Assembly (NCBI RefSeq): GCF_002356295.1
Contig: NZ_AP018042.1
Location: forward strand, 3,752,361-3,816,360
Direction of reading: 5' to 3'
From: Labilibaculum antarcticum
Lineage (GTDB): Bacteria > Bacteroidota > Bacteroidia > Bacteroidales > Marinifilaceae
DNA: 64,000 nt
Shown: positions 28,684-47,240 of the stretch, piece after piece
Layout of the letters: each line of letters starts with the position of its first letter
Position numbering within the stretch: the stretch's first letter is position 1
Made by a program: the position numbers and the translations under genes
Notes under the pieces: model-generated
What the model was told of the DNA's origin: nothing
Seen by the model: only the letters and a program-made list of their open reading frames with translations
Databases searched by the model: none

Positions 28684-28750
28684 TGTGTAAATTATGTAAC
28701 TGATATACAGAAATATGTAATGCTTTATTTAATTAATCGGTGAACCTTTG
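28684..28750 (+). promoter_or_regulatory. Shared bipartite promoter motif, plus-strand copy
   Basis: TGTGTAAATTATGTAAC is followed by a second half-site ATATGTAA with the TGTAA cores 21 bp apart. After 22 bp comes AACCTTTG (28743-28750), a -7-like box. It is the only plus-strand member of the ten-promoter set in this window, and drives the CsbD remnant and the sll1863-like lipoprotein gene. Confidence 0.7.
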
Positions 28751-28808
28751 TAAGGTGAAATTTTATTCACCATTGTATTGCCAGTTGCAACAGCTAAAAT
28801 TCAAAGTC

Positions 28809-28905
28809 ATGAAGATAACTGAACTAAAAGGAAACTGGAAAAAAAGCTAAACTCAAAAACAGAAGGCAAAAATAGTTCTGGCAAGAGAGTTTGAAATACA
28901 CACTC
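28809..28905 (+). pseudogene. Degraded CsbD-like gene
   Basis: An ATG at 28809 opens MKITELKGNWKK, the typical start of Bacteroidota CsbD-family stress proteins. A stop follows after 13 codons, and the remaining reading (K-L-K-N-R-R-Q-K) continues only in another frame. It sits directly behind the shared stress promoter, where an intact CsbD gene would be expected (compare the intact copy at 34247-34435). Confidence 0.4.
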
Positions 28906-28977
28906 GTCCCATATTTAAGAATCTATATTTGCAATTTTAATCTTTTAAAAGACAAATAAATTAATAAAAATATAACT

Positions 28978-29439
28978 ATGAGAAAATCAATTTTAATCCT
29001 GGGAAGCACACTACTTATGACTGTAACACTATTTTCCAGCTGCCAATCATCAGCAAAAAAAGTTGAAAATGCAGAAGCGAAAGTACAGGAAGCCAAAAAG
29101 GATTTGTCAGATTCTAAAACTGATTTGTATTATGCCAAACAAGATTCTATTAGTGATTATCAGCAATTCAAAAAAGAAGCTGAAATAAAAATAATGGCTC
29201 GTGAAAAAAGCATTTCTGAATTCAAATCAAGAATAGCAAAAGAGAAAAAGGAAGTAAAAGATGACTATGAAAAAAAATTGGTTGAATTGGAGAATAAAAA
29301 CAGTGATTTTAAAAAGAAGCTAGCCGATCTTAAAGATGACGGTCAAGACAAATGGATAGCTTTCAAAGTTGAATTTGATCGTGATATGGATGAATTGGGC
29401 AAAGCGTTTAAAGATTTGACTGTAAATAACGCCCATTAA
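28978..29439 (+). CDS. sll1863-type stress-response coiled-coil lipoprotein
   Basis: The 153-residue product has a signal peptide with a lipobox (TLFSSCQSS, Cys23), then an almost uninterrupted charged coiled coil (residues 30-130). It ends with KWIAFKVEFDRDMDELGKAFKDL, the conserved tail of sll1863-family stress proteins in Bacteroidota. It is expected to be anchored in the periplasm. It is transcribed from the shared motif promoter about 220 bp upstream, behind the CsbD remnant. A paralogue follows at 29582. Confidence 0.75.
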   Translation: MRKSILILGSTLLMTVTLFSSCQSSAKKVENAEAKVQEAKKDLSDSKTDLYYAKQDSISDYQQFKKEAEIKIMAREKSISEFKSRIAKEKKEVKDDYEKKLVELENKNSDFKKKLADLKDDGQDKWIAFKVEFDRDMDELGKAFKDLTVNNAH

Positions 29440-29581
29440 TTAATAAGATTGAACTTGCAACAACTGATTATTTAACGGAAAATTAAATGCATGTTTTTGT
29501 GAAAGAATATTTTGAAAAAGTCGGCTAAATACAAAAAAACACTTGAAACTGGCTTCTAATCTTTTAATAAACGATATTATC

Positions 29582-30025
29582 ATGAAAAAAAATATTTTAA
29601 GGCATATAACAGTAGAAGGTTTTGCCCATAGCTCTGATTTATCCAATTGTGAACTATTAGAAAAAGAATTTAATGAGGCAAAGGGTAGATTTAAGATTGC
29701 TAAAAAAGAGTTGAAAATAGCAAAGAAAAAACTAAACGGAGCTTTGGATGAAATAATTACTGAAATAGAGAGTAAGAAAAAAGAAGCTCAGAATAATTTG
29801 GATGATAATTCTGATTCCTCATCAGTTTTTAATAGCGAAAATATAAAATCAAAGCATGAAGAAACAATCGTCGAATTGGAAGTAATGAAAGACAAAATAA
29901 AAACGAAGGTTGAGGAATACAATACAAAAGGAACTGAAAATTGGGACTCGTTTAAACATAAACTAAATCATGACTTGGAAGAACTCGGTATAGCTTTAAA
30001 GAGCTTTGTGACTAAGTCTAAGTAG
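29582..30025 (+). CDS. Cytosolic coiled-coil paralogue of the sll1863-type protein
   Basis: Starting at ATG 29582 (an upstream in-frame TTG is less likely), the 147-residue protein lacks a signal peptide. It has a Lys/Glu-rich coiled coil with heptads KGRFKIAKKELKIAKKKLNG. Its C-terminus (NWDSFKHKLNHDLEELGIAL) aligns with the tail of the upstream lipoprotein, so the two are paralogues, one exported and one cytosolic. The 142-bp gap between them has no clear promoter motif, suggesting co-transcription. Function unknown. Confidence 0.65.
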   Translation: MKKNILRHITVEGFAHSSDLSNCELLEKEFNEAKGRFKIAKKELKIAKKKLNGALDEIITEIESKKKEAQNNLDDNSDSSSVFNSENIKSKHEETIVELEVMKDKIKTKVEEYNTKGTENWDSFKHKLNHDLEELGIALKSFVTKSK

Positions 30026-30558
30026 ATAAATAAGGATAAGAGACACTATCCCGCAAAGTGTAAGTGATATTTCCAGGGTTGGACTTTAGTGAAGTCTGAC
30101 CCTTTTTCCAAATATAGTTAAAAGCTGTTTGTATATCACTGCTCGTTTTTGGATTGACAAAGTCTATTTTACAGCTGCTTTCTTCGTCCCGAAATAGGCT
30201 GATTTTATTACCATTTCATCAGAGGGAAGGACAATTTACCCTTGTACTTGCTAATTTTTCTAATCTTCAGAGGAAACTCGAAATTACTTGATCGGGAATA
30301 CAGGAGATGGTACAGACTTTAGAATTATAAACCCCTGAATTTGCTGTTGAATGTCACTATTACTCATTCTCTTCGAGAAGAGCGATACAATGAATATCTT
30401 CAGACTTTTAACCATTTCTCATGTGCAAGGATAAGTTTGAAAGTGGCATCCCGATCACGAGCTACGATGATTCCAGAATTTATTAAATTTGCGTGTACTT
30501 TGGACCAGATCCCTTTCCGGAGTTATTATTGGTATTAATTCTTTATGTATAAAAAATA
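30026..30558. other. About 530 bp without a recognisable gene
   Basis: A 65-codon frame at 30341-30538 has no family features. The sequence has the look of decayed coding DNA, but I cannot name the source. Confidence 0.4.
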
Positions 30559-30583
30559 AACCACGAATATATTATTCGTGGTT
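30559..30583 (-). terminator. Terminator of the 30604 lipoprotein gene
   Basis: An 11-bp perfect stem (AACCACGAATA / TATTCGTGGTT) with a 3-nt loop, followed on the minus strand by a T-rich stretch, 21 bp after the stop. Confidence 0.7.
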
Positions 30584-30603
30584 CCGTCATTAGTGCATCG
30601 CGA

Positions 30604-32112: not shown

Positions 32113-32991
32113 CTATAGTCTTCTGAAATCTTTCAGGTTAAAACCATCCTTGTTTTCATTTGTGATTTTGCGTGAATTGTAATAGTACAGGTTTCCATAT
32201 ACATCAAAAATCATTTCAAAACATTTTCCTGCAGCGTCTTCCTGTGCCGGACCAACATGAAAATTAAACAAGGCATTAGAAGGATCGGTTGCTATTTCTT
32301 TTTGGATTTCGTCTCCACTTAAAAATTTCACATAATAGGAATATGTCGATTTTATTTTTTCAGGTGAATTGGCTTCTATAGCCATCATATCTTTGTTTAG
32401 TAACAATACTTTATCTTTAAAGCTTGATGAACCATTGTAATATTTTAATCCTCTCAATGATATCATGAAACGATGTGATTCAAGCTTTAATGCATGTTTC
32501 TGCATGAATTTAACCATTGCGGGAATTACATATCCAAAATCCATCGTATTGTCATCACTGTATGAAATAGGAAAACTGCACAATTCAGGCATGTTAGTAA
32601 GGTCGGCTGATTTGTCGCCCAACACAAGGCTAAGGTAATTATAGCTCACCCCATCAGGGTCATTGTCAAAAACACCTTTCATGAGTACTAAAAAAGAATA
32701 CTTCGAGTCGAAGTGACGCTGATTAAACTCTTCTTGACTAATAAATTCATAATCGGTAGATTTCCAGTGCTTTTTAACTGCTTCTTTAATAAGTATATTA
32801 TATTCAATAGTACCATCTTCAAGCACCACACAAAGGGTAGAGTTTTTAAACATTCCGATTTGCTGTTTTGATGCCAATTTAGGATTTGCCGATGCTCCTA
32901 AGCTAAAGAATCCTATGGTAATGATACAAAGAAGTAATTTTAGATTACCTGCTATAGATTGGTATATGGTATTAACAAAAGATTTTTTCAT
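32113..32991 (-). CDS. Exported hypothetical protein under the shared promoter
   Basis: The 292-residue protein has an N-terminal signal sequence ending near SLGASANP. The mature domain is mixed alpha/beta, including LCVVLEDGTIEYNILIKEAV and a C-terminal GKCFEMIFDVYGNLYYYNSR. No family recognised. A member of the shared bipartite promoter set lies 41-108 bp upstream, linking it to the DUF3494/CsbD genes. Confidence 0.6.
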   Translation of the reverse strand: MKKSFVNTIYQSIAGNLKLLLCIITIGFFSLGASANPKLASKQQIGMFKNSTLCVVLEDGTIEYNILIKEAVKKHWKSTDYEFISQEEFNQRHFDSKYSFLVLMKGVFDNDPDGVSYNYLSLVLGDKSADLTNMPELCSFPISYSDDNTMDFGYVIPAMVKFMQKHALKLESHRFMISLRGLKYYNGSSSFKDKVLLLNKDMMAIEANSPEKIKSTYSYYVKFLSGDEIQKEIATDPSNALFNFHVGPAQEDAAGKCFEMIFDVYGNLYYYNSRKITNENKDGFNLKDFRRL

Positions 32992-33031: not shown

Positions 33032-33099
33032 TAAAGGTACTTAGGCTTGTAAAAAAGCTTATTACACAACTTTAACAATAAGTTACATCATTCACACAT
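33032..33099 (-). promoter_or_regulatory. Shared bipartite promoter motif of the 32113 gene
   Basis: On the minus strand: TGTGTGAATGATGTAAC, second half-site GTTGTGTAA, then 22 bp and a TACCTTTA box (33032-33039). This is a near-consensus copy. Confidence 0.75.
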
Positions 33100-33251: not shown

Positions 33252-33989
33252 TTACTGTTTTACAATAGTATTACCTTCCAAAGTAACTCCGCCAGTTCTT
33301 GTTAATGCCCGACCATCAAGTGTTGCTCCTGTATTGAAGGTTATTGATTCAGTTGCTAAAACAGTTCCTTTCATAACAGATGTAGTCCCAAAAGTTGCAG
33401 AACTACCCACATTCCAAAAAATATTGGATGCTAATGCACCTCCGCTAAGAATAACCTTACGGCCTGATGTTGTGGTAAATGCTGATGCTATCTGTACTAT
33501 AAATACGGCACCTGCATCTCCCCGTGCATCAAAAGTAAGATCGCCTGATGAAATATCTAGGGATGAAGTAGAAAAATAGAGTCCGGGAGTAAGTGTAAGT
33601 CCACCAATATTTCCTGACAATGTTACTACGTCAGCACATGTTCTTGCTGCAATATCATTATATGTATCAACGATATCAAGTTTAGCCTGATTAGCTATTG
33701 CATCATTAATATGCTGTGTTCCGTTCAAAATTCCTGGAGGAAATCCTCCTATTGAAGTACCAGGACTTAATCCAATATCACCAGTAATCACTGTTGCTCC
33801 CGTGTTGGTAACTTCTGAACCTGCAAGAATCGCAAAGTTAGATGCAGCATCAAGTGAAATTGTTGTTTGAACTGTTGTTTGAACAGGAATAGTTATTAGG
33901 TTGCCTAAATCATCATCATCATTGTTGCAACCGGCTATTAAAATAACTAATGCTATCGCAAAAATTGGTAGTATATTTTTTATTTTCAT
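33252..33989 (-). CDS. DUF3494 (ice-binding-like) lipoprotein
   Basis: From ATG 33989 the 245-residue protein has a lipobox (VILIAGCNN) and a DUF3494 domain over most of its length. Hallmarks are AASNFAILAGSEVTNTGATV, GDIGLSPGTS, LTPGLYFSTSSLDIS and FWNVGSSATFGTTSVMKG. The fold is a beta-helix known from ice-binding proteins, but most members outside cold habitats are surface or adhesion proteins, so ice binding is not claimed. The frame extends to 34043 without a plausible start. It is the shortest of four DUF3494 genes here and has the shared motif upstream. Confidence 0.88.
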   Translation of the reverse strand: MKIKNILPIFAIALVILIAGCNNDDDDLGNLITIPVQTTVQTTISLDAASNFAILAGSEVTNTGATVITGDIGLSPGTSIGGFPPGILNGTQHINDAIANQAKLDIVDTYNDIAARTCADVVTLSGNIGGLTLTPGLYFSTSSLDISSGDLTFDARGDAGAVFIVQIASAFTTTSGRKVILSGGALASNIFWNVGSSATFGTTSVMKGTVLATESITFNTGATLDGRALTRTGGVTLEGNTIVKQ

Positions 33990-34028: not shown

Positions 34029-34095
34029 CAAAGCTAAGATCATTAGCTGTTGAGAGTGTTATACAACTTTTTATAAAAGTTACATTGTTCACATA
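34029..34095 (-). promoter_or_regulatory. Shared bipartite promoter motif of the 33252 gene
   Basis: Minus strand: TGTGAACAATGTAAC, half-site GTTGTATAA, 22 bp, then TAGCTTTG (34029-34036), an exact TAnnTTTG box. Confidence 0.75.
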
Positions 34096-34246: not shown

Positions 34247-34435
34247 TTACAGCGATTCAATAATATTTTGCACCTCTTTTTTTGTTTTGCCTAACTTAAT
34301 TTGAAGTCTTTCCTCCAATGCTTCTTTTTTACCTTTTTCAAACAATGAATCATTGTTTACGAGTACAGCAAATTTCTGTTTAAGTTTATCTTTTTTATTT
34401 TCCCAGTTTCGATATGATTTTGATGTATCTGTCAT
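34247..34435 (-). CDS. CsbD-family stress protein
   Basis: The 62-residue protein matches the small helical CsbD family: W-x-x-K-K-D-K-L-K-Q-K-F-A near the start and LGKTKKEVQNII at the end. CsbD proteins are abundant general-stress proteins of unknown biochemistry. It is cytosolic and monocistronic, and its promoter carries the shared bipartite motif. Confidence 0.82.
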   Translation of the reverse strand: MTDTSKSYRNWENKKDKLKQKFAVLVNNDSLFEKGKKEALEERLQIKLGKTKKEVQNIIESL

Positions 34436-34474: not shown

Positions 34475-34541
34475 CAAAGGTGAGTATATTAGGCACGAAA
34501 GGAGTTACATAAATTTAGATTAAAGTTGTAACATTCACACT
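34475..34541 (-). promoter_or_regulatory. Shared bipartite promoter motif of csbD-like gene
   Basis: Minus strand: GTGTGAATGTTACAAC, second half-site TTATGTAAC, 22 bp, then CACCTTTG (34475-34482). The first half-site core is slightly divergent. Confidence 0.65.
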
Positions 34542-34829: not shown

Positions 34830-35675
34830 TTATGGTTTTACAACAGTACTCATTTGAAGGGTAACAGCAGTTTGTGCTAACATTCTTCCATTCAAAGTTG
34901 CACCTGTTTTCATATTAATAGCTGTTTGTCCTAAAATGTTTCCTTCAAAATGACTAGTCGTTCCGAAAGTTACGGACCCAGCTACTACCCAGAAAATATT
35001 TTTAGCCTGAGCACCACCTTCTAAAGTAACTCTTACTGCAGAGTTCATATTTAGATTTCCTGCAACTTGAAAAATGAAAATATCTGTAGAGTTACCAGAA
35101 ATTGTGATATCAGTTGGGATTTCAACAGAACTTGACCAGTTGTAAAGACCTGAAGTAAGGGTTTTGCCACCAATGGTTCCAGCACCTAAATTCAAGTAAT
35201 CAGGATTAGATCTTCCTGCTGCGTCTGTGTAAGCTGCTTGCATATCAAGTACAGCAATTCCTAATCTGGTAGCACTTGTAATTTTGCAAGCTGGGCCTGC
35301 TGCATCAACAGAGAATATAGAACCTGTTACTTCATCACAACTTAATGTAATAGCAGCACCGGTGATAGGACTTGTTCCAATATCTCCTAAAATAGAAGAT
35401 TTATAAACACTAGTTATTCCTGTTTTTGAAAGAATTGCGAATTCGCCTGCAAGCCCTAGATTTACTGTTTCCAAACTACTATTTGTACTTTTTAATGACA
35501 TGTCTGACGAAAGCGTTGAAGCAGATTGTGCTGCCAGTTTTTCAGAAGCTAAGGTTTCTGAGTTCGCTACTGCAGCTTGTTCTGATGCTGGATTTACACC
35601 CATGTTTTTATCACAGCTAGAAATTAATCCTGCCATTAATACGATTGAGATTAGAAATGCATTTTTCAGTTTCAT
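34830..35675 (-). CDS. DUF3494 (ice-binding-like) lipoprotein
   Basis: From ATG 35675 the 281-residue protein has a signal peptide and lipobox (LISSCDKN), then a low-complexity Ala/Ser linker (about residues 25-70). A DUF3494 beta-helix domain fills the rest, with GEFAILSKTGITSV, GDIGTSPITGAA, LTSGLYNWSSSVEIP and FWVVAGSVTFGTTSHFEG. The frame extends upstream to 35789 but the signal peptide fixes the start. It carries the shared promoter motif and a strong terminator. Confidence 0.88.
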   Translation of the reverse strand: MKLKNAFLISIVLMAGLISSCDKNMGVNPASEQAAVANSETLASEKLAAQSASTLSSDMSLKSTNSSLETVNLGLAGEFAILSKTGITSVYKSSILGDIGTSPITGAAITLSCDEVTGSIFSVDAAGPACKITSATRLGIAVLDMQAAYTDAAGRSNPDYLNLGAGTIGGKTLTSGLYNWSSSVEIPTDITISGNSTDIFIFQVAGNLNMNSAVRVTLEGGAQAKNIFWVVAGSVTFGTTSHFEGNILGQTAINMKTGATLNGRMLAQTAVTLQMSTVVKP

Positions 35676-35710: not shown

Positions 35711-35778
35711 CAAAGTAAGGGAACTTAACAGGGTCGTATGTTGCATAATTGTGTCTATAAGTTGTGTTATTCACACAT
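35711..35778 (-). promoter_or_regulatory. Shared bipartite promoter motif of the 34830 gene
   Basis: Minus strand: TGTGTGAATAACACAAC, second half-site TTATGCAAC, 22 bp, then TTACTTTG (35711-35718). A divergent copy that keeps all spacings. The remaining 290 bp up to 36071 hold nothing recognisable. Confidence 0.6.
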
Positions 35779-36071: not shown

Positions 36072-36521
36072 TTACATCCGATCCATATACCAACTTAATT
36101 CTTTTTCCATTTTTTTGTATGAAAAAATAGTTGTAATAATTTTTTGCAAACGCATAAAGGCAGTTTCACTTTTCACGACATAGTCGAAAGCCTTGTGATG
36201 CATACAGTTGATAGCCACATCAATTTTATCTTGAGATGACAGCATTACAACAGGGATATCCGGATTGAACGATTTTATTTCATCCAATGTTTTGATTCCG
36301 TTTATCGCGTTTTTATTAATTCCGTCAAGATGATAATCTAAAATTATTACATCGGGTTTGTGTGATAAATTCTCTAAACAAACTTCGCCTGTTTCAAATG
36401 TTTCAATTTCAAAATCAGCCTGTTGCATAAAATCTATCTCTAATGATTTTAGATACAAAGCATCATCATCAACCAGAAAAATTTTGATTCGATTGCTATC
36501 TGAGTTATTATTGTTACTCAT
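36072..36521 (-). CDS. Stand-alone response regulator receiver protein
   Basis: The product of about 149 residues is a single CheY-like receiver domain: acidic pair in FLVDDDALYL, phospho-acceptor Asp in VIILDYHLDG, Thr/Ser in VVMLSSQDK and Lys in YVVKSE. A short helical tail replaces any DNA-binding output domain, so it should signal by protein contact. Met at 36521 overlaps the end of the hybrid kinase gene, implying translational coupling; the frame extends to 36542. It completes the AraC-kinase-receiver operon. Confidence 0.85.
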   Translation of the reverse strand: MSNNNNSDSNRIKIFLVDDDALYLKSLEIDFMQQADFEIETFETGEVCLENLSHKPDVIILDYHLDGINKNAINGIKTLDEIKSFNPDIPVVMLSSQDKIDVAINCMHHKAFDYVVKSETAFMRLQKIITTIFSYKKMEKELSWYMDRM

Positions 36522-39372
36522 TTTTTTGTGTTTTAATTGCATTAAACTCTTCTTCTAATTCTTCACATGCCTGTATACAAACGTCTTCAAGTTGCAGAAC
36601 CATTTCAGAGATTCCTTCAGATTGTTCTTGAGTGCTGGCATATTCCTGTACTTTTTTTGCCATGTCTTCGAAATCGGTACTAATACCCATTATCGAAAAT
36701 GATGGTATCATTTTATGAACAGCTGTGTACAGTGATTTCCAGTCTTTATTTTCCAGACCTTGTTTCATTGTAGTAATTAAAGCTGGAGTTTGTTTCAGAT
36801 AAAGCGAAATCATATCCATCATTAGTTTTGGATTTGATTTTGTCCTGCGATTTAAATAATCTAAGTCAGTACATTTCTCCTTTTCACTAGGGTCTAATCT
36901 GTTTTTTTCAGCTTCTATACTATTGGGATTCATTTTTATCAGACCAACCATTTTACTATATAATAGTCTTTCGTCGACAGGTTTCGCTATGTAATCATCC
37001 ATTCCAACAGATTTGCATTTCGCCAAATCAACAGTAGTAACATCCGCTGTTAAGGCAATGATAGGAATATTGGAATTCAATGTATTCCGAATATATTCGG
37101 TAGCTTCAAATCCATTCATTTCCGGCATTTGCAGGTCCATCAAAATAATATCGTGCGATTTGGTTTGCATTTTCTCGATAGCAATTTTTCCGTTAGCAGC
37201 AATATCGCTTTCAAATTCGAAATCATCCAAGAGCGTTTTCATCAGTAATTGATTGAGAGGAATATCTTCAACCACCAATACTTTTATATTTTTAAGGTCA
37301 GTGCACAATTCAGCCATCTCTGGCTCAAAATCAGCTTTAGCCTTTGTTTTCTGGAAACTTAATGTAAATCTAAAAGTAGAGCCTTCATTAATTTTACTGG
37401 ATACATGAATGCTGCCGCCCTGCGTTTCTACTAATTGTTTAACAATGGCAAGCCCCAAACCAGTTCCTCCAAACAAACGTGAAGTACCGCTGGTTGCCTG
37501 CTGGAAATTCTCGAAAATCGCTTCTATTTTATCTTCAGGGATTCCAATTCCAGTATCCGAAACGGTAAATTCAAGGATTACTTTCTTTTCATCTTCATCC
37601 AACAATTTAATCCCGAATGTAACTTTGCCTTTCGAAGTAAATTTCACAGCATTACTTAACAGATTTGAAATAATCTGGTGTAACCTAACCGGGTCGCCAA
37701 CCACCACATCAGGAATATTGGTATCGTAGTCTTTTACTAATTTTAAATTCTTTTCCTGAATTTTAATGTCAAAAAGATGCAGCATTGCTGCTATAGACTG
37801 AGATATTTTGAAAGGTATTTTCTCAAATGTCAGTTTTCCGGCATCTACTTTTGCCAAATCGAGTATGTCATTTATAAGAACGATTAATGCATCACCACTT
37901 ATTTTTATGGCTTTTAAATATTCTTTTTGTTTTTCAGACAATTCGGTTTTAAGCATTACTTTGGTAAATCCGATAATCGCATTCATAGGAGTGCGAATTT
38001 CATGACTCATATTTGATAAAAACAACTGTTTTGCTTTTACCGCATCTTCAGCAATTAATGTGGCTTTTTCTGCTTTACTCTTTGCTTCTTCAGCAATCAA
38101 TGTTGCCATTTCGGCAAATACGATAGCTTCTGTAAGCTCTGTAGCAATTCTTTTTTGTTCGGTAACATCTCTTGCAACAATCACTACTCCATCTACATCT
38201 CCATTTTCATTTTTATAAACCGATCCGTTGAATAGTACATCGGTTAGCTTACCATTTCTATGGCGAATTGTAAGTGGTGAATCGGCAACAGATCCCTTAG
38301 CGAAAACTTCTAAATAAACTTCACGTGCTTTTAGTGGTTCGGTAAAATAATTCAGAAAGTCAGTATCTGTTAATTCTTCACGTGTCAGCCCTGTAATTTT
38401 TGTCAAAGCCTCATTCATATCGGTTATCTTACCTTCGATATTTATAGTAATCAAAGGATCAAGACTCGCTTCAATAAGACTTAGTGTATATTGAGAATCT
38501 GATTCGATCTCATCGTTAAACGCCTCCAGTTCTTTTGTTGCAATTTTCTGCTTTTCTTTTTCTTTGTTTTGAAAAGCAAGCTCTTTATTGGCGATAATTA
38601 ACTCAGCTGCCCTTTTTTCTTTCTCATTGTTTTGAAAAGCAAGTTCTTTATTGGCAATGATTAATTCAGCCGCTCTTTTTTCTTTGACTTCATTTTGAAA
38701 AGCAAGTTCTTTGTTTGCAATGACAAGTTCTGCTGCTCGTTTTTCTTTCTCATCGTTCTGGAAAGCAAGCTCTTGATTGGCAATGATTAGTTCTTGAGCC
38801 CGTTTTTCCTTCTCAACGTTTTGAAAAGCAAGTTCTTTGTTGGCAACGACCAATTCAGCAGCCCGTTTTTCCTTCTCAACGTTTTGAAAAGCAAGTTCTT
38901 TGTTGGCAACGATTAACTCAGCAGCTCGTTTTTCTTTCACTTCGTTTTGAAAAGCAAGTTCTTTATTCGCTCTTCTTAACTCCATTACCCATTTTTGATT
39001 TGTAACAATACGGGCTGACGCAAAAACGCCGATAATATTTCCTTTATCATCTTTATAAACGGAAGCATTGAATGATACATCGGTTAAACTCCCGTTTTTA
39101 TGTATTAGAATTAAGGCGTAATCAACTACAAAACCTTTTTCAAAAACCAGAAGATAAGCTTCCTGTGCTTTTTTAGGATCTGTAAAATAATTTGAGAAAT
39201 CAGTATTCATCAACTCTTCACGCGAAACACCGGTCACTTTTATCAAGGCTTCGTTACCATCTGTAATCTTTCCTTTAGCACTGATCGTAACCAGTGGATC
39301 TATACTGGCTTCTATCAAACTTCTGGTGTATTGATCTCTATATCTATCGGGTTTTCTTTTTGTTGTTTCCAT
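36514..39372 (-). CDS. Hybrid sensor histidine kinase (PAS-coiled coil-PAS-HisKA-HATPase-REC-HPt)
   Basis: In the 952-residue cytosolic kinase, PAS1 spans about 13-130, PAS2 about 296-410 and HisKA has its H-box in SNMSHEIRTPMNA. HATPase_c carries an N-box (QIISNLLSNAVKF) and G-boxes. REC has Asp in IILMDLQMPEMNG, and a C-terminal HPt has a His in AVHKM. Between the PAS domains is a coiled coil of seven near-identical 21-residue units of the type ANKELAFQN-x-EKEKRAAEL (about 134-280). No transmembrane segment is visible, so it senses an internal signal. The phosphorelay probably ends on the receiver protein at 36072. It is 42 bp downstream of the AraC gene. Confidence 0.9.
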   Translation of the reverse strand: METTKRKPDRYRDQYTRSLIEASIDPLVTISAKGKITDGNEALIKVTGVSREELMNTDFSNYFTDPKKAQEAYLLVFEKGFVVDYALILIHKNGSLTDVSFNASVYKDDKGNIIGVFASARIVTNQKWVMELRRANKELAFQNEVKEKRAAELIVANKELAFQNVEKEKRAAELVVANKELAFQNVEKEKRAQELIIANQELAFQNDEKEKRAAELVIANKELAFQNEVKEKRAAELIIANKELAFQNNEKEKRAAELIIANKELAFQNKEKEKQKIATKELEAFNDEIESDSQYTLSLIEASLDPLITINIEGKITDMNEALTKITGLTREELTDTDFLNYFTEPLKAREVYLEVFAKGSVADSPLTIRHRNGKLTDVLFNGSVYKNENGDVDGVVIVARDVTEQKRIATELTEAIVFAEMATLIAEEAKSKAEKATLIAEDAVKAKQLFLSNMSHEIRTPMNAIIGFTKVMLKTELSEKQKEYLKAIKISGDALIVLINDILDLAKVDAGKLTFEKIPFKISQSIAAMLHLFDIKIQEKNLKLVKDYDTNIPDVVVGDPVRLHQIISNLLSNAVKFTSKGKVTFGIKLLDEDEKKVILEFTVSDTGIGIPEDKIEAIFENFQQATSGTSRLFGGTGLGLAIVKQLVETQGGSIHVSSKINEGSTFRFTLSFQKTKAKADFEPEMAELCTDLKNIKVLVVEDIPLNQLLMKTLLDDFEFESDIAANGKIAIEKMQTKSHDIILMDLQMPEMNGFEATEYIRNTLNSNIPIIALTADVTTVDLAKCKSVGMDDYIAKPVDERLLYSKMVGLIKMNPNSIEAEKNRLDPSEKEKCTDLDYLNRRTKSNPKLMMDMISLYLKQTPALITTMKQGLENKDWKSLYTAVHKMIPSFSIMGISTDFEDMAKKVQEYASTQEQSEGISEMVLQLEDVCIQACEELEEEFNAIKTQKNE
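38545..38985 (-). repeat. 63-bp in-gene tandem repeats encoding the kinase coiled coil
   Basis: Seven copies of a 63-bp unit encode 21-residue signalling-helix repeats. 21 residues are three heptads, so copy-number change keeps the coiled-coil register and could tune signal transmission length. Confidence 0.75.
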
Positions 39373-39414: not shown

Positions 39415-39996
39415 TTAAATACAATCGGGCGTGTTTCCAATTTCTTCAATAGGTCTTCGTCTTTTATTCTTCAATTTTTTAAAATGAGAGGGGGTAAGCC
39501 CTGTAATTTTTTTAAACTGATTAGATAAATGAGCTACACTGCTGTAATTCATTTTCCATGCAATTTCGGTAATGCTTAACTCATCATAAATAATCAATTC
39601 TTTTATCCGTTCAATTTTATGAGAAATCATAAATTTTTCGATAGTAGTTCCTTGTACTTCTGAAAATAAATTAGAGAGATAAGTATAATCGTGATTTAAT
39701 TTCTCACTTAAAAAATCAGAAAAGTTTGTTTTAATCATTTCATCCGTATAATGGATCATTTCAATAATTAGAGTTTTTATTTTTTCAATCAATATAGCTT
39801 TCTTATCATCCATTAATTCAAGTCCTGTGATGTGTAAAGCTTTTTTCAGTTCTTCCCTTTGTTCTTCCGAAATGTTTTCCATGATCTCAACTTCGCCTAA
39901 TTCTACAACAATGAAATGTAGTCGAAGCTTTTTTAACTCCTCTTTAACCGCGGTTTTACAACGGTTACTTACCATGTACTTGATATATAATTTCAT
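39415..39996 (-). CDS. AraC-family regulator, candidate master of the local regulon
   Basis: From ATG 39996 the 193-residue protein has an N-terminal ferredoxin-like domain (MKLYIKYMVSNRCK, then LHFIVVELGEVEIMENIS). Its C-terminal AraC double HTH (about 95-180) ends SVAHLSNQFKKITGLTPSHF. I know this type from Bacteroidota stress loci next to CsbD genes and hybrid kinases. It heads the operon with the kinase and receiver. Its own promoter carries the shared bipartite motif with half-sites 21 bp apart, the typical geometry for two AraC monomers in tandem, so autoregulation and control of the other sites are likely (inference). Confidence 0.83.
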   Translation of the reverse strand: MKLYIKYMVSNRCKTAVKEELKKLRLHFIVVELGEVEIMENISEEQREELKKALHITGLELMDDKKAILIEKIKTLIIEMIHYTDEMIKTNFSDFLSEKLNHDYTYLSNLFSEVQGTTIEKFMISHKIERIKELIIYDELSITEIAWKMNYSSVAHLSNQFKKITGLTPSHFKKLKNKRRRPIEEIGNTPDCI

Positions 39997-40016: not shown

Positions 40017-40084
40017 CAAAAATGGTCCTTTTTAACTCGAAAAGTGTTACACAACCTTTACTATAAATTACATCATTCACGCAC
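40017..40084 (-). promoter_or_regulatory. Shared bipartite promoter motif of the araC-kinase-receiver operon
   Basis: Minus strand: GTGCGTGAATGATGTAAT, second half-site GGTTGTGTAAC, 22 bp, then CATTTTTG (40017-40024). The -7 box is the weakest of the set, suggesting stronger dependence on the activator. Confidence 0.7.
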
Positions 40085-40267: not shown

Positions 40268-42622
40268 TTATGGCTCTACAATTACATTACTGTCTAGGAT
40301 TACAGCAGTTTGTGCTAAAGCTCTTCCATTAAATGATGCTCCTGTTTTAAAAGTAATAGCTGTCTGCGACAAAATAATACCTTCAAAATGAGATGTTGCT
40401 CCAAAAGTTGCTTCACCGGCTACCTGCCAGAAAATGTTTTTTGCTTGTGCGCCTCCTTCAAGAGTAACGTTAACTCCTGCACTCATGTTAAGCCCCTCTG
40501 CAATTTGGAAAATCCAAACATCATTAGGTCCACCCGAAATAGTAACATCAGAAGGCAATGTAACAGCAGTTCCCCAATTATATAATCCTGGAACAAGGGT
40601 TTTGCCACCAATATTTCCAGTTCCTAAATTTAAAAAATCAGGAGTAGGTCGACCGGCAGCATCTGTATAGGCTGTAAGCATATTTTCAACAGCTGTAGTT
40701 AAATTACTTGAAGTAGGAGTTACCATATCGGCGGCAAAAATCTGACCAGTAACTTGAGCCGATTCTGCATATCCTGTAAAATCGGTTAAGGAAAGTCCAG
40801 TAATGTACGATGTGGCTGCCGGACTTAAACCCAAATCTCCGGTAATATCGGAAGTGGGATTGTTATTGATCGCGGTTTTAGCAAGAATTGCATAATCACC
40901 TGCAGTTCCAAGATTAACTACAGCTAGGCCAGTTGGTGCAGCTTCAGTTGTGAAACTCCATTCTTTATCAGCAGCAAGTGCATTACCAGCTAAGTCTTTT
41001 ACTTCAGTAGTTAGCGTTGCAGTATAAGTTGTTGCAGCGACTAAGCTATTATCTGGTGTAAAAGTTGCTGTTGTTCCTGAATAATCCACAGCACCGGAAA
41101 CTACATTTGATCCTTCCATTACTGTAAATGTTGAATTAGTGATCGTTAAAGCATCCATTTCTTCACTGAATTCTGCAGTAATTTTTTTACTGCGAATTAT
41201 ATCCACTGCATTATCTAAAGGGTCTGTTGAATTTATTTTCGGAGATGTTTCATCCGGAGCATCTTCAGTTGTAAAACTCCATACTTTAGTAGTTGCAAGT
41301 GCATTACCAGCTAAGTCTTTTGCTTCAATAGTCAGCGTTGCAGTATAAATTGTTGCAAAGGCCAAGCTATTATCTGGTGTAAAAGTTGCTGTTGTTCCTG
41401 AATAATCCACAGCACCGGAAACTACATTTGTTCCTTCCATTACTGTAAATGTTGAATTAGTGATCGTTGAAGCATCCATTTCTTCACTGAATTCTGCAGT
41501 AATTATTTTACTAGGAAGTACATTCACTGCATCGTTTACAGGGTCTGTTGAAGTTACCTCAGGTAATGTATCATCAGGTATAATACCAGTTGTAAAACTC
41601 CATACTTTAGCAGTCGCAAGTGCATTGCCAGCTAAGTCTTTTGCTTCGGTAGTTAGCGTTGCAGTATAAATAGTTTCAGCGACCAAGCTATTAGTTGGTG
41701 TAAAAGTTGCTGTTGTTCCTGAATAATCCACAGCACCGGAAACTACATTTGTTCCTTGCATTACTGTAAATGATTCAGCATTGATCGTTGAAGCATCCAT
41801 TGCTTCGCTGAATTCTGCAGTAATTATTTTACTAGGAAGTACATCCACTGCATCGTTTACAGGATCTGTTAAAGTTACTTCCGGTAATGTATCATCTGAT
41901 AAAAGACCAGTTGTAAAGCTCCATACTTTAGCAGTTGCAAGTGCATTACCAGCTAAGTCTTTTGCTTCAGTAGTTAAGGTTGCAGTATAAATAGTTTCAG
42001 CGTCCAAGCTGTTAGCTGGTGTAAAAGTTGCTGTTGTTACAGAATAATCCACAACACCGGAAACTTCATTTGTTCCTTGCATTACTATAAATGATTCAGC
42101 ATTGATCGTTGAAGCATCCATTGCCTCATTAAATGTAACAGCAATTGTCTTGTTAAGAACTACGTCTTTAGCATCGCTTGCAGGGTCTGTTAAAGTTATC
42201 GCAGGTGATATATCATCTAGTAAAAGACCAGTTGTAAAACTCCATACTTTATCAGCAGCAAGTGCCTTGCCTGCTAAGTCTTCTGCTCCGGTCGTTATAG
42301 TAGCCGTATAAATTGTTTCAGCAGATAAAGTATTTGTTGGATTGAATGTTGCCACTAATCCCGAATAATCCACAACACCTGTAACTGCATCTGTTCCTTG
42401 CATTACTCTAAATGTTGAAGTATTGATCGTTAAAGAATCCATTGCCTCACTAAATGTAACAGCAACTATCTTATCAAGAGCTACATCTGCAGCTTCGTTT
42501 GCCGGATCGGAAGAATTCACTGTTGGTGCAGTATTTAAATTGATATCGTCGTCTTCTGAACAACCAAACATCAAAACAACCGTTGCAATTGCAAGGGTTG
42601 ATAATAAATTTTTTAATTTCAT
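40268..42622 (-). CDS. Lipoprotein with five SbsA-type Ig-like domains and DUF3494
   Basis: This 784-residue surface protein has a lipobox (VLMFGCSEDDD, Cys21). Five tandem Ig-like domains of 107 residues (about 32-565) follow the SbsA_Ig pattern, each with F-(S/N)-E-x-M-D, Y-T-A-T-(I/L)-T and DLAG-x-ALA-x-x-K-x-W-SFTT. A C-terminal DUF3494 domain spans about 570-784 (GTAGDYAILAKTAINNNPTS, GDLGLSPAATSYITG, FWQVAGEATFGATSHFEG). The Ig-like domains probably act as a stalk projecting the DUF3494 head. At DNA level the units repeat at 321 bp with high identity. The neighbour at 42816 is a shorter paralogue with the same signal peptide, terminator and promoter. Confidence 0.9.
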   Translation of the reverse strand: MKLKNLLSTLAIATVVLMFGCSEDDDINLNTAPTVNSSDPANEAADVALDKIVAVTFSEAMDSLTINTSTFRVMQGTDAVTGVVDYSGLVATFNPTNTLSAETIYTATITTGAEDLAGKALAADKVWSFTTGLLLDDISPAITLTDPASDAKDVVLNKTIAVTFNEAMDASTINAESFIVMQGTNEVSGVVDYSVTTATFTPANSLDAETIYTATLTTEAKDLAGNALATAKVWSFTTGLLSDDTLPEVTLTDPVNDAVDVLPSKIITAEFSEAMDASTINAESFTVMQGTNVVSGAVDYSGTTATFTPTNSLVAETIYTATLTTEAKDLAGNALATAKVWSFTTGIIPDDTLPEVTSTDPVNDAVNVLPSKIITAEFSEEMDASTITNSTFTVMEGTNVVSGAVDYSGTTATFTPDNSLAFATIYTATLTIEAKDLAGNALATTKVWSFTTEDAPDETSPKINSTDPLDNAVDIIRSKKITAEFSEEMDALTITNSTFTVMEGSNVVSGAVDYSGTTATFTPDNSLVAATTYTATLTTEVKDLAGNALAADKEWSFTTEAAPTGLAVVNLGTAGDYAILAKTAINNNPTSDITGDLGLSPAATSYITGLSLTDFTGYAESAQVTGQIFAADMVTPTSSNLTTAVENMLTAYTDAAGRPTPDFLNLGTGNIGGKTLVPGLYNWGTAVTLPSDVTISGGPNDVWIFQIAEGLNMSAGVNVTLEGGAQAKNIFWQVAGEATFGATSHFEGIILSQTAITFKTGASFNGRALAQTAVILDSNVIVEP
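40930..42535 (-). repeat. Five 321-bp tandem units encoding Ig-like domains
   Basis: Units repeat every 321 bp (107 codons). The inner copies are closest to each other, which fits copy-number change by recombination, while the N-terminal copy is more divergent and resembles the first domain of the neighbour gene. Confidence 0.75.
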
Positions 42623-42652
42623 ATAATTGTTTTAATTAATATTGTAACAAAA

Positions 42653-42720
42653 CAAAGGTAAATACACTAACAGTCTGAAATGTTACACCAAAATGCTATT
42701 AAGTTACATCATTCACGCAC
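42653..42720 (-). promoter_or_regulatory. Shared bipartite promoter motif of the 40268 gene
   Basis: Minus strand: GTGCGTGAATGATGTAAC, second half-site TTGGTGTAAC, 22 bp, then TACCTTTG (42653-42660), a perfect -7 box. Confidence 0.8.
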
Positions 42721-42762
42721 TTTTTTTTGTGACACTTTTACAAAATGCTTTTGTAAATTAAA

Positions 42763-42794
42763 AAAAGAGGTAGCCTTATTAGACTACCTCTTTT
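42763..42794 (-). terminator. Terminator of DUF3494 gene at 42816
   Basis: An 11-bp perfect stem (AAAAGAGGTAG / CTACCTCTTTT) 22 bp after the stop codon, nearly identical to the terminator of the paralogue. Confidence 0.75.
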
Positions 42795-42815
42795 AAATCT
42801 GGTTATAATATTCTA

Positions 42816-44207
42816 TTATGGCTCTACAATTGCATTACCATCTAGACTTACAGCAGTTTGTGCTAAGGCTCTTCCATTAAAGGATGCTCCTGTTTGAAAA
42901 TTAATCCCCTTCATTGATAAAATGATACCTTCAAAATGAGATGTTGCTCCAAAAGTTGCTTCACCGGCTACCTGCCAGAAAATATTTTTAGCTTGGGCTC
43001 CACCTTCAAGCGTTACATTTACTGCAGCACTCATATTAAGATCACCTGAAATCTGGAAAATCCAAACATCGTCAGCTCCACCCGAAATAGTAACATCAGT
43101 AGGCAATGTAACAGTACTTGTCCATTTATATAAACCTGGAACAAGCGTTTTACCTCCTAAATTTCCAGTTCCTAACTCAAGAAAGTCAGGAGAGGGACGA
43201 CCTGCCGCATCATTATAAGCGGTAATCATATTTTCAACAGATGTAGTTAAATTAATTGGAGTTGGATCTGCCATATTGGATGCAAAAATTTGACCGGTAA
43301 CCTGATCAGATGTTGCATACCCCGTTGCATCTGTTAACGCAAACCCTGTTATATAGGAAGTGGCTGCCGGACTTAAACCCAAATCTCCGGTAATATCAGA
43401 AGTAGGATTGTTACTGATCGCGGTTTTAGCAAGAATTGCATAATCACCTGCAGTTCCAAGTTCAACTGCAGCCAGGCCAGCTGGTGCATCTTCAGTTGTA
43501 AAACTCCATACTTTCTCAGCAGCAAGGGCATTACCAGCTAAATCTTTTGCTTCGGTAGTTAGGGTTGCAGTATAAATTGTTGAAGCGACTAAGCTATTAG
43601 TTGGTGTAAAAGTTGCTGTTGTTCCTGAATAATCCACAACGCCGGAAACTGTGTTTGTTCCTTGCATTACTATAAATGATTCAGTATTTATCGTTGAAGC
43701 ATCCATTGCTTCGCTGAATTCAGCAGTAATTATTTTACTGCGAAGTAAATCCACTGCATTGTTTGCAGGGTCTGTTAAAGTTATCTCCGGTGATATATCA
43801 TCTGGTAAAAGGCCAGTTGTAAAACTCCATACTACATCAGCAGCAAGTGCTTTGCCGGCTAAATTTTCTGCTCCGGTTGTTATTGTAGCCGTATAAATAG
43901 TTTCAGCAGATAAAGCATTTGTTGGATTGAATGTTGCCACTAATCCTGAATAATCCACAACACCAGCAACAGCATCTGTTCCTTGCTTTACTATAAATGT
44001 TGAAGTATTGATCGTTAAAGGATCCATTGCCTCATTAAATGTAACAGCAAGGTTTCTATTAAGAGCTACATCTGCGGTATTGTTTACCGGATCAGAAGAA
44101 ACCATCGTTGGTGCAATATTTAAATCGGTATCGTCATCTTTTGAACAACCCGACATCAAAACAACCGCTGCAATTGCAAGGGTTGAAAATAGATTTTTTA
44201 ATTTCAT
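42816..44207 (-). CDS. Lipoprotein with two SbsA-type Ig-like domains and DUF3494
   Basis: The 463-residue protein has a lipobox (VLMSGCSKDDD) and two Ig-like domains (about 32-245), each with the F-(N/S)-EAMD and VWSFTT landmarks. A DUF3494 domain follows (about 248-463), very close to that of the 784-residue neighbour (GDLGLSPAATSYITG, FWQVAGEATFGATSHFEG). The two genes are tandem duplicates differing mainly in Ig copy number. Probable surface-exposed adhesin-like protein. Its promoter has a near-perfect copy of the shared motif. Confidence 0.9.
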   Translation of the reverse strand: MKLKNLFSTLAIAAVVLMSGCSKDDDTDLNIAPTMVSSDPVNNTADVALNRNLAVTFNEAMDPLTINTSTFIVKQGTDAVAGVVDYSGLVATFNPTNALSAETIYTATITTGAENLAGKALAADVVWSFTTGLLPDDISPEITLTDPANNAVDLLRSKIITAEFSEAMDASTINTESFIVMQGTNTVSGVVDYSGTTATFTPTNSLVASTIYTATLTTEAKDLAGNALAAEKVWSFTTEDAPAGLAAVELGTAGDYAILAKTAISNNPTSDITGDLGLSPAATSYITGFALTDATGYATSDQVTGQIFASNMADPTPINLTTSVENMITAYNDAAGRPSPDFLELGTGNLGGKTLVPGLYKWTSTVTLPTDVTISGGADDVWIFQISGDLNMSAAVNVTLEGGAQAKNIFWQVAGEATFGATSHFEGIILSMKGINFQTGASFNGRALAQTAVSLDGNAIVEP

Positions 44208-44237: not shown

Positions 44238-44304
44238 CAAAGGTAAATACATTAACACCCTGAAATGTTACACAAGACTGTTCTTAAGTTACATCATTCA
44301 CACC
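44238..44304 (-). promoter_or_regulatory. Shared bipartite promoter motif of the 42816 gene
   Basis: Minus strand: GGTGTGAATGATGTAAC, second half-site CTTGTGTAAC, 22 bp, then TACCTTTG (44238-44245). Best single example of the set. Confidence 0.8.
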
Positions 44305-44974: not shown

Positions 44975-45103
44975 GATATTTAAATTAATTAATTCCTACT
45001 CGTTTGGCTTTTCGGGTACGCCTCGTTTGAAATGGTTTTCAGACTCCATCTGTAATTGTTTTAAATCCAGACCAGTTGGTAATGATACCGTCTGTATTTC
45101 AAA

Positions 45104-45331
45104 TTATTTTTTCCTTGTAGCCAAGATGATTACAATACCACCCAGTCCCATTACCGCTAGTCCTATAAATGGCGACCACTCCAGGTTATGGTGTTGATTT
45201 CTTGTAATTTGAATATCGCCCATGTCAATTACATTTTCCTTAGTAAAGAAACTGAAGGTTGTGAAAATGGTCATAACTACACCAATAAGCAGAATAATTA
45301 ATCCCCCTTTTTTTATGTTCCCTTTATTCAT
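45104..45331 (-). CDS. Small two-helix membrane protein (DUF3185-like)
   Basis: The 75-residue product has two transmembrane helices (about 9-29 and 53-71) separated by a short polar loop (NVIDMGDIQITRNQHHN) and a basic C-terminal RKK. Size and layout resemble the DUF3185 family, but I am not certain. Its upstream region (45565-45631) carries the shared bipartite promoter, about 235 bp from the start codon. Confidence 0.6.
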   Translation of the reverse strand: MNKGNIKKGGLIILLIGVVMTIFTTFSFFTKENVIDMGDIQITRNQHHNLEWSPFIGLAVMGLGGIVIILATRKK

Positions 45332-45564
45332 ATCTTAAATTATTAGTAATAAATTGTAATTTTTTTTTAAAATCTCTATCCTGGATAATCCTTGATAAGT
45401 GCAGCTACTATTGCAATGGTAAATAGAATGTGAATAGCTTCACCTGTATTACATCCAAAGCAGTTGATAATCTATATTATAGTACATCCTGCAGGGGATG
45501 CATAGAGCAAAGTTATTATTGTATCTATTTCTTTTTAATTTATACAAGTAATTATTTTACAAGA

Positions 45565-45631
45565 CAAAGATGAGCATGTTCAAATCAAAATAGCTTACAC
45601 AACTCTAACTGAATATTACATCATTCACACA
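45565..45631 (-). promoter_or_regulatory. Shared bipartite promoter motif upstream of 45331
   Basis: Minus strand: TGTGTGAATGATGTAAT, second half-site AGTTGTGTAA, 22 bp, then CATCTTTG (45565-45572). It leaves an unusually long leader of over 200 nt before the next start codon. The rest of 45332-45892 shows no gene. Confidence 0.7.
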
Positions 45632-45892
45632 TTTCGTGTACGAAAAATGAAGTTGATCTTACGTAAAGGATCCCTATTTAAAAAGCATTCTTCCAATGGG
45701 TTCTCTAAAAATACTAAATTTTGATATTGAAGATGCATTGTTATCACGTGAAATTTTTGAGTAAACGCTTTGACAATTCAGAATAATGTAGTCTTGAGAA
45801 TAAAATGAAAATTAGATATGTAATCTTTTTCAATGCTGTTAATTAAAATTATTTTTTTGTGAACAATTGAATTGAGGTGTTTTTAAATAGAA

Positions 45893-46078
45893 TTATTTAT
45901 GATGTTTCCCATGGTGTTTTTTTGATTTTGACTGATGGGAATTATGTGGGTTATTAGAATTTTTGTACCATCCCTTATGTTTTCCGTTATTTGTTTTATA
46001 ACCTACAACGCAGGATGATGTTCCAAATAAAAGACATATACTCAAAGCTAATATCGCGAATGTTCTGAATTTTTTCAT
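45893..46078 (-). CDS. Tiny His/Lys-rich lipoprotein
   Basis: The 61-residue product has a clear signal peptide and lipobox (LLFGTSSCVV, Cys23). The short mature tail is full of Asn, Lys and His (SKSKKHHGKHHK). Function unknown; metal or polyanion binding is possible. No shared motif upstream. Confidence 0.55.
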   Translation of the reverse strand: MKKFRTFAILALSICLLFGTSSCVVGYKTNNGKHKGWYKNSNNPHNSHQSKSKKHHGKHHK

Positions 46079-46297
46079 ATCTAAATTAAATAAGTTGAAG
46101 TGTTTATTAATGGTGAAGAAAATATTTTTTTGTCATTTACTTTTGAATATAAAAAATCAGTTAATAAACCAATAGAATAATGACAACAACAGATGTAATG
46201 GCTTTACGATAAAGTTTTTTTGTTTTAGTAATACTTCATATTACTTTATTTTAAGGCATTCAATTTGTTCATCAACGCTCATGACAGTTTATCTTTT

Positions 46298-46650
46298 GTG
46301 TGTGCGAATGGTAAATTTAATAAAATAAAGTCCAGAGAGTGAAAGTCTGAACTGACGAAGAGTGCCTAGCTCGTGAATACCATTTTAGAAAGGCAGGAAT
46401 GAATCAACGGAATAGGAGGTATTGTTTTATTTCTGCAAAACCCATGATTACCAAAAGGATAGCAATGTAGATGGGGCGCGCCAAGCTAAAGGTACTGCAG
46501 AATTAGATGGAAGGACATTTACCTTACCAAGGGAGATCGAATCAACCAAGCTTTGGTACTGATGAGAATTGGAGCGGAGCGGAAATCTGGAATTCCTTTG
46601 GATTTATGTCATGAGCAACTCAGCCGAAGCCATCGTAAATGTTGGGTAAT
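46298..46650 (+). mobile_element. Group II intron-like 5' remnant
   Basis: Sequence from GTGTGCGA onward, including AGAGAGTGAAAGTCTGAACT (about 46334) and GAGTGCCTAGCTCGTGAATA, resembles the 5' ribozyme region of Bacteroidota group II introns. A following stretch reads like the decayed leader of their reverse-transcriptase frame (KGTAELDGRTFTLP, MSNSAEA). No intact reverse transcriptase follows, so this is a truncated relic. Confidence 0.5.
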
Positions 46651-46666
46651 GAGCTCAAAATATGCC

Positions 46667-47002
46667 TTAATCAATAGTCAAATCAATAACTTCAGCTTTG
46701 TGCGCATTCTTGTTTACTGAATCAATCCCTTGGTCTCTACTTTGTTTTGATGTGTACATTTGACTTGTGCCAATAATTTGACTATTTACCGCGGTCAGGT
46801 TAAAATATGGACTTCCATCTGAAGCTGTTTCCTGTTTAAACATTTCCTTATCAAGACTATTGGTTTTAACAGATTCAATTCCATTTTGGCAAGCCTCTTT
46901 TGTTGTATAACCCTGGCTTGTCATAATAATTAAGCCATTTGGCGCTTTAAGGTTAAACATAAAGCTTGCGTCTACTCTTTTTGTAATTTCAAATTTTTCC
47001 AT
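46667..47002 (-). CDS. YegP-like protein with two DUF1508 repeats
   Basis: The 111-residue protein is made of two copies of the DUF1508 module: FMFNLKAPNGLIIMTSQGYTTKEACQ and PYFNLTAVNSQIIGTSQMYTSKQSRD, each with F-x-L-x-A-x-N-x-x-I-I and S-x-x-Y-T/S followed by an x-GI-x-SV helix. Family members are small cytosolic proteins of unknown role, often stress-induced. The shared bipartite promoter motif lies upstream, tying it to the CsbD/DUF3494 set. Confidence 0.85.
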   Translation of the reverse strand: MEKFEITKRVDASFMFNLKAPNGLIIMTSQGYTTKEACQNGIESVKTNSLDKEMFKQETASDGSPYFNLTAVNSQIIGTSQMYTSKQSRDQGIDSVNKNAHKAEVIDLTID

Positions 47003-47175
47003 GATTTATTGTTTTTATGTGAGTTAAAATGATGTGACCCTTTTACGTCAATGTTCAATAGCCTTTTCGTCAATTAAGAATTCCCAGGCTAACTCGTTAA
47101 TTCTCTTTCACAGCATACAGTTGATCGGGTTCACCTATATTAACTAATTAAAATATCATCTGAATGATAATACTG

Positions 47176-47240
47176 TAAAGGTAAGCACCTTTGTTTCTGG
47201 AATATTACACAATTTTATAAAAGAATTACATCATACACAT
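47176..47240 (-). promoter_or_regulatory. Shared bipartite promoter motif of the YegP-like gene
   Basis: Minus strand: ATGTGTATGATGTAAT, second half-site ATTGTGTAAT, 21 bp, then TACCTTTA (47176-47183). One bp shorter spacing than the other copies. Confidence 0.65.

Follow-up and report, generated by a model that had tools for sequence, protein, structure and literature searches.

We find that ten promoters within a 64,000-nucleotide stretch of Labilibaculum antarcticum DNA (the window, whose coordinates are used below) share a bipartite motif at a near-fixed distance from the −7 box, and that this motif is very probably the operator of the AraC-type regulator encoded at 39415–39996, a member of a family with a predicted copper-chaperone-like fold; the protein would activate a general-stress-like regulon in class II fashion. 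A first-pass annotation, made from the sequence alone, had named this protein as the best candidate activator; the tracking of close relatives, the adjacency of motif and gene and the recognition-helix pattern all support that choice. The annotation had overlooked the copper-chaperone-like domain of the regulator, a branch of relatives associated with copper exporters and the stress character of many of the targets.

Read towards the gene, the operator as aligned over the ten window sites consists of TGTGAATGATGTAACTT, N10 and TTGTGTAAC, followed by 20–21 loosely conserved nucleotides and then TACCTTTG or a variant of it (the TAnCTTTG box). The cores lie 21 bp apart at all ten sites, and the second half-site is separated from the box by 21 nt at nine sites and by 20 nt at 47176, so that both the core spacing and the near-constant gap with its single, one-nucleotide-shorter exception are as the annotation had described. 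Nine of the ten sites align without gaps between the half-sites and score 21.0–38.9 bits in leave-one-out tests; the best match in the window that is not a site reaches 13.5 bits with the matrix from all ten, and the maxima in 30 third-order Markov copies of the window average 11.4 bits, with a top of 19.0. The motif is present at all ten promoters listed earlier and stands exactly where stated at nine of them. The register first given for the remaining one, 28684, was rejected (−22.5 bits), and a shift of 2 bp to 28686 raises the score to 18.7 bits. By itself this is no better than the top of the random copies; we accept the site because an ACCTTTG box stands at the right spacing and because the same site is found in the sister genome G002 (L127:5731), where at 30.7 bits it is stronger than the window copy.

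No −33 element accompanies the operator, TTG standing at the −33 place in one of 100 related sites with a clear box. The box is of the type described for Bacteroides promoters (consensus TTTG/TAnnTTTG in PubMed Central article PMC10620806), and the arrangement of direct repeats about 21 bp apart, with the proximal half-site at the −35/−33 position, is by its geometry that of AraC/XylS activators. At PBAD the I2 half-site of AraC covers −35 to −51, according to a figure legend of PMC11434276. Since both half-sites lie upstream, TTG at −33 is so rare and the layout is AraC–PBAD-like, activation is the likely direction of control. We suggest that the direct half-sites, being 21 bp or two helical turns apart, present the same face of the helix to two regulator molecules or a dimer, and that the downstream one, lying where a −33 element would be expected, helps the housekeeping sigma factor to start at the TAnCTTTG box in class II fashion.

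A sequence-only profile (R1) built from the window sites was applied genome-wide (5.72 Mb); of 9094 candidates from the first look 150 were scored, so that weak sites may be missed. The ten window sites, which form its training set, rank first, and four further sites were accepted (E 3.8e-7 to 0.0041): one precedes the gene of a DUF302 protein, one that of an ice-binding-like protein, and two stand ahead of genes for lmo0937-type membrane proteins, of which one was checked against families. A candidate at 4214607 (E 0.0089) was rejected, its best local score being 6.8 bits. The known sites are concentrated around araC, with the caveat that the motif was discovered by reading this window and that 10 of the 14 sites are the training set.

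Across genomes the motif follows close relatives of the regulator. In 115 nearer genomes it occurs in 14, a regulator relative (E≤1e-25) in 44 and both in ten; it is found in six of the nine genomes with a relative at 60% or more and in 8 of the 106 others. In a sample of 296 Bacteroidota genomes the motif is present in 21, namely 14 of the 26 with a relative at 60% or more (own genome included) against seven of the remaining 270 (Fisher 2.5e-12; Fisher values here are too small because genomes and rows are related), and it occurs in all seven with a relative at 77% or more (six of six when the own genome is set aside). A column-permuted control model matched one of the 296 genomes, and that barely (E 9.6e-4), and gave no match in the 1.33 Mb made up of 80 related loci and the window; genus mates without a close orthologue (G001, G003–G008) showed no motif match. 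For the annotation's proposal, by which the motif ought not to vanish where the AraC orthologue is kept, these figures are mostly favourable.

The linkage is also seen within the loci. Of the related loci in named genomes the best 80 were taken, the list being limited to that number. Among the 127 regulator rows one locus is entered twice (L134 is L206), so that 126 are distinct. Among these 80 loci, 59 hold 146 matches (E≤0.1), with a core spacing of 21 bp in 137 and the box 20–21 nt on in 123, a geometry that the model itself favours. When half-site 1 alone was required, 190 matches were obtained; in 131 of these the top-scoring half-site 2 was exactly 21 bp away, every other distance being seen twice at most. 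Counting sites above 15 bits, the regulator gene has one beside it in 67 of 126 distinct rows (68 of 127 with the duplicate), compared with 1.9% of random 160-bp stretches from the same loci. The position of the site differs between branches, which we denote by the cysteine pattern of the regulator's first loop (CxxC or SxxC): the 45 kinase-linked rows, all SxxC, have it 5′ in 30 and 3′ in none; the 39 SxxC rows without a linked kinase have it 3′ in 20 and 5′ in one; and the 42 CxxC rows, none of them kinase-linked, have it 3′ in 16 and 5′ in none. The motif thus stands beside the regulator even in the absence of a linked kinase or receiver. On a rough FastTree tree (126 of 127 rows; 23 of 122 inner branches well supported; two pairs only in the independent-pairs test), one change suffices for the switch in site position, two for the Cys state and three for the kinase link.

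In 26 of 36 rows the 3′ site overlaps the end of araC by five bases, its TGTGA including the TGA stop codon. The 3′ sites might be an artefact of the coding-sequence end, but the signal survives removal of the five overlap columns: a score above 10 bits is then reached in 43 of 81 kinase-free rows and in none of the 45 kinase-linked rows, against a background of 2.6%. This conserved overlap of coding end and operator can be seen at L156, L185, L189, L206, L219, L136, L139, L141 and other loci.

The presence of a site also varies with the second recognition helix. Rows with a helix like YSSVAHLSNQF (xxHLS) have a site in 67 of 109 cases, and rows with another helix, such as YSSSQHFSRQF in the own-genome paralogue and genus mates, in 0 of 17 (two pattern-unreadable and six close relatives). 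That paralogue (G000:C1:5317813-5318388, L102) is a CxxC protein of about 48% identity, with no motif alongside. At L149:9337-10573, L156:8772-10564 and L129:4015-5883 the motif lies between tandemly arranged family members, one of which may drive the operon of the other.

The regulator itself most likely starts at 39996, giving 193 aa; a longer open reading frame (ORF) from 40080 would overlap the promoter. Its C-terminal, DNA-binding half matches HTH_18 (1.4e-16) and HTH_AraC (5.4e-8), both over the Pfam cut-off, and Foldseek matches its model to the DNA-binding domains of AraC, MarA and SoxS. In the AlphaFold2 model (mean predicted local distance difference test score, pLDDT, 85) the N-terminal half is arranged strand–helix–strand–strand–helix–strand, which we read as a predicted Atx1/CopZ copper-chaperone fold. 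The N-terminal half of the CxxC relative L225 has the same predicted beta-alpha-beta-beta-alpha-beta fold (mean pLDDT 85), and a search of solved structures with it ranks TTHA1718, the HMA7 copper domain and CopZ highest; Atox1 and Atx1 come lower in the list, and some other ferredoxin-like folds stand in between. At an E of 2.1e-3 at best this is a fold match and not proof of kinship. The structure-model alignment covered 41 of the 80 related loci (L174, L196, L224, L226 and L227 being left out). Many relatives, in 42 distinct rows, carry CxxC at the copper-chaperone position (IKNMVCxRC, at the end of the first loop). The window regulator carries SxxC, as do all 45 kinase-linked rows, and so lacks the metal-binding CxxC.

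The genes behind the sites divide along the same lines (target domain searches covered chosen proteins, and several names given here are best matches below equivalog cut-offs). Six CxxC members of 38–54% identity carry a 3′ site, and in every one of them the adjacent gene is of copper type (five of the six family-checked): four are P-type ATPases (L136, L139, L142, L145; three checked, L139 over the copper-ATPase cut-off) and two are SO_0444 Cu/Zn exporters (L141, L107). At L143 an HYC_CC_PP gene follows a 14.5-bit site, slightly under the threshold. For the CxxC members that precede copper-export genes, a role as Cu(I) sensors is probable. Among CxxC members at 62–69% with a 3′ site, 7 of 10 distinct ones precede a short cupin-like protein (one checked); such a gene lies directly behind the CxxC regulator at L135, L186, L206, L210, L219, L223 and L225. 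In the kinase-linked and intermediate branches the genes behind sites include those for CsbD-like, sll1863-like, lmo0937-type, YtxH, YiaD-like, BON/OsmY-like, Dps-like and DnaJ proteins, together with many ice-binding-like ones. Homologues of CsbD/YjbJ, YtxH, OsmY, Dps and YegP are members of the SigB or RpoS regulon elsewhere, and from these gene families we read the regulated set of the window's clade as a general-stress-like regulon, which the regulator would drive together with its own operon. Sites preceding Usp or a ribosome hibernation factor were seen solely where the genome has no fitting regulator (G077, G127, G132, G101). The same target families with strong sites are seen at L110 and L111 (G101) and at L108 and L109 (G059), loci with no detectable regulator of the family.

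In the window's clade the first Cys appears to have been lost, and the regulator gene to have come to share an operon with genes for a PAS-hybrid kinase and a receiver. The kinase lies 3′ of araC in 45 rows, with the receiver behind it in most of those; the receiver at 36072–36542 gave no DNA-binding domain in a Pfam search. Because the motif persists in branches that lack the kinase link, neither kinase nor receiver is required as its binder, and from their linkage we consider that in the window's clade they probably provide the input to the regulator. Between its PAS domains the kinase has seven ELAFQN repeats with a period of exactly 21 residues, and it ends in a sub-threshold Hpt domain.

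Several observations weigh against the regulator as sole binder of the motif or against its proposed ancestry. Among 34 distinct genomes that bear the motif, at least eight lack a family member whose recognition helix matches (in the remaining genomes the helices of the members were read in part). In G101 (seven sites), G059 (four) and G308 (one) there is no family match at E≤1e-6; in G068 (two sites) and G077 (one) the only matches are limited to the helix-turn-helix (HTH) part of longer proteins; and G127 (four sites), G132 (five) and G180 (one) have a CxxC member with a different helix (AHFS) and no site alongside. A family member is present in 2 of 14 genomes of G059's family and in none of three of G101's. 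The exception genomes are mostly drafts, with 79–100% estimated completeness, so that gaps may explain some of the exceptions and surely not all, and a second regulator with a similar operator is possible there. Conversely, at E≤1e-3 the motif was not matched in 12 of the 26 phylum genomes with a relative at 60% or more or in three of the nine nearer ones, where drifted sites are lost because the motif model was trained on the window. In 59 of the 126 rows the regulator gene has no neighbouring site that exceeds 15 bits. Finally, the structural matches of the N-terminal half are weak (E 0.099 for the window protein against Atx1, and for L225 the best value already given), and Pfam HMA stays under its cut-off, with no match in the window protein or in L141 and 14.4 bits against a cut-off of 24.8 in L139.

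Considering these exceptions, a different activator might bind the motif, the araC operon being merely one of its targets and the adjacency incidental. G127 in particular has a different AraC-type gene (L244:12789-13685, about 298 aa) near variant TGGGATAAATGTAAC-type sites before Usp and other genes, perhaps a sign that another regulator acts there on a related operator. We nevertheless regard this explanation of the window sites as unlikely, given that the motif tracks the close relatives of the regulator, stands beside its gene in three branches and beside members without linked kinase or receiver, and is absent beside all 17 members with a changed helix. That the regulator binds the motif and represses, or does both depending on the signal, is in our view improbable: many metal sensors act as repressors, and activation is deduced here from promoter architecture, but half-sites placed wholly upstream of the −7 box, with next to no TTG at −33, form an activator-dependent layout, and the I2 half-site of AraC overlaps −35 likewise (figure legend of PMC11434276).

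Some extracytoplasmic function (ECF) sigma factors have −35 elements that resemble TGTAAC, and the motif could in principle be the recognition sequence of such a factor. What follows it at a fixed distance of 20–21 nt is, however, a housekeeping-type TAnCTTTG box, matching the Bacteroides consensus in PMC10620806, in place of a sigma-specific −35/−10 pair, and paired half-sites two helical turns apart are no sigma layout; we hold this to be very improbable. Shared sequence by recent descent, the promoters being copies of a mobile or duplicated element, is harder still to credit. The promoters and gene starts at 42653 and 44238 are indeed near-copies, and a leader sequence is common to the promoters at 28686, 1995309 and 2165218, but between most sites the spacers diverge with half-sites and distances conserved, and this holds likewise in distant genera.

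The proposed system resembles the AraC/XylS activators (AraC at PBAD, XylS, SoxS/MarA) in its HTH_18 domain and in its direct half-sites about two turns apart, the proximal one at −35/−33. It differs from AraC in having a predicted copper-chaperone-like ferredoxin fold in the N-terminal half instead of a cupin domain, and from the AraC/XylS systems in its Bacteroidota-type −7 box and, in the window's clade, its linkage to a hybrid kinase and receiver. With Atx1, CopZ and HMA domains the family shares the predicted beta-alpha-beta-beta-alpha-beta fold and, in many relatives, CxxC at the end of the first loop; unlike them it falls below the Pfam HMA cut-off and is fused to a DNA-binding domain, with Ser for the first Cys in the window protein. 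Like CueR (MerR), CsoR and CopY, some CxxC members adjoin copper exporters, whereas those sensors belong to other DNA-binding families and the putative metal domain of the present family is itself chaperone-like. With the systems of RpoS, SigB and PhyR/EcfG it shares predicted targets related to CsbD/YjbJ, YtxH, OsmY, Dps, YegP and DnaJ-type proteins, while the proposed activator would work with a housekeeping-type box and not through an alternative sigma factor.

To our knowledge Bacteroidota are without RpoS and SigB. We propose tentatively that the general stress response of Bacteroidota may be run, as a counterpart of RpoS/SigB, by AraC-type activators derived from a copper sensor of copper-chaperone fold, with the operator and class II layout kept, the metal ligand lost and the hybrid kinase and receiver as the new input; taken jointly, we judge this conceivable rather than probable. 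For the question of how Bacteroidota coordinate stress genes, the present analysis offers one regulator family with its operator, promoter layout and predicted targets across many genera, and it points to a way in which a metal sensor may become a kinase-linked regulator with its DNA site unchanged. Cultured carriers among the loci listed include species of Flavobacterium, Sunxiuqinia, Ancylomarina, Mucilaginibacter, Dyadobacter and Algoriphagus; the environmental species Flavobacterium fluvii DSM 19978 and F. urumqiense (loci L160 and L151) have both the operon and its 5′ site. Among the titles and abstract openings listed for the open-access PMC literature, in one case 15 of 25,920 records, nothing dealt with the regulator family, the motif or the regulon, which is weak evidence of novelty since subscription journals and preprints lie outside that scope.

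The ten target units of the window (Table 1) comprise four ice-binding-like (DUF3494) genes, one CsbD-like, one DUF1508 (YegP-like), one small membrane and one exported protein gene, a sll1863-like pair standing behind a broken CsbD-like ORF at the 28686 promoter, and the araC–hybrid kinase–receiver operon.

Table 1. Operators, target genes and regulatory genes in the window. Site scores are leave-one-out values with pseudocounts slightly different from those of the 21.0–38.9-bit series in the text.
Feature	Position	Strand	Context or domains	Score or match
Operator + −7 box	28686..28750	+	before broken CsbD-like ORF and sll1863-like gene 28978	18.7 bits
Operator + −7 box (TACCTTTA)	33032..33096	-	before exported protein 32113-32991	35.8 bits
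Operator + −7 box	34029..34093	-	before ice-binding-like protein 33252-33989	27.6 bits
Operator + −7 box	34475..34539	-	before CsbD-like protein 34247-34435	28.2 bits
Operator + −7 box	35711..35775	-	before ice-binding-like protein 34830-35675	21.6 bits
Operator + −7 box	40017..40081	-	before araC-kinase-receiver operon	34.9 bits
Operator + −7 box	42653..42717	-	before Big_5/ice-binding-like protein 40268-42622	33.3 bits
Operator + −7 box	44238..44302	-	before Big_5/ice-binding-like protein 42816-44207	37.6 bits
Operator + −7 box	45565..45629	-	before small membrane protein 45104-45331; box to start codon ~230 nt	28.9 bits
Operator + −7 box, spacer 1 nt shorter	47176..47239	-	before DUF1508/YegP-like 46667-47002	27.4 bits
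sll1863-like exported protein	28978..29439	+		best match of L188:16997-17440 (43%), which clears the sll1863_fam cut-off
Exported protein, family not assigned	32113..32991	-		
Ice-binding-like (DUF3494) lipoprotein	33252..33989	-		PF11999 5.1e-61
CsbD-like protein	34247..34435	-		PF05532 7e-5, 23.1 bits, under Pfam cut-off of 40
Ice-binding-like lipoprotein	34830..35675	-		PF11999 1.1e-60
Stand-alone receiver protein	36072..36542	-		Pfam Response_reg 4.2e-18, sole family
Hybrid histidine kinase	36514..39372	-	PAS-(21-aa repeats)-PAS-HisKA-HATPase-receiver, weak Hpt	
AraC-type regulator, 193 aa	39415..39996	-	predicted Atx1/CopZ-like fold res. 1-62 (SxxC) + AraC HTH res. 96-174	
Big_5/ice-binding-like protein	40268..42622	-	five Big_5 + ice-binding-like	
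Big_5/ice-binding-like protein	42816..44207	-	two Big_5 + ice-binding-like	
Small membrane protein	45104..45331	-		
DUF1508, two copies (YegP-like)	46667..47002	-		PF07411 2e-38

The CsbD-like ORF directly behind the 28686 promoter (28809–28850) is disrupted after 13 codons, and at the matching place in G002 (L127:5867) there is only a 31-aa remnant. An inverted repeat GGTGAA...TTCACC (window 28750–28800) with a similar leader lies 3′ of the −7 boxes at 28686, 1995309 and 2165218 (L023 and L024 leaders); the hairpin after the 28686 box folds no better than shuffled sequences (z −1.2). The tandem Big_5/ice-binding-like genes in 40268–44207 have near-identical promoters, and since the orthologous contig of G002 holds one such gene where the window has two, the pair may be a recent duplication.

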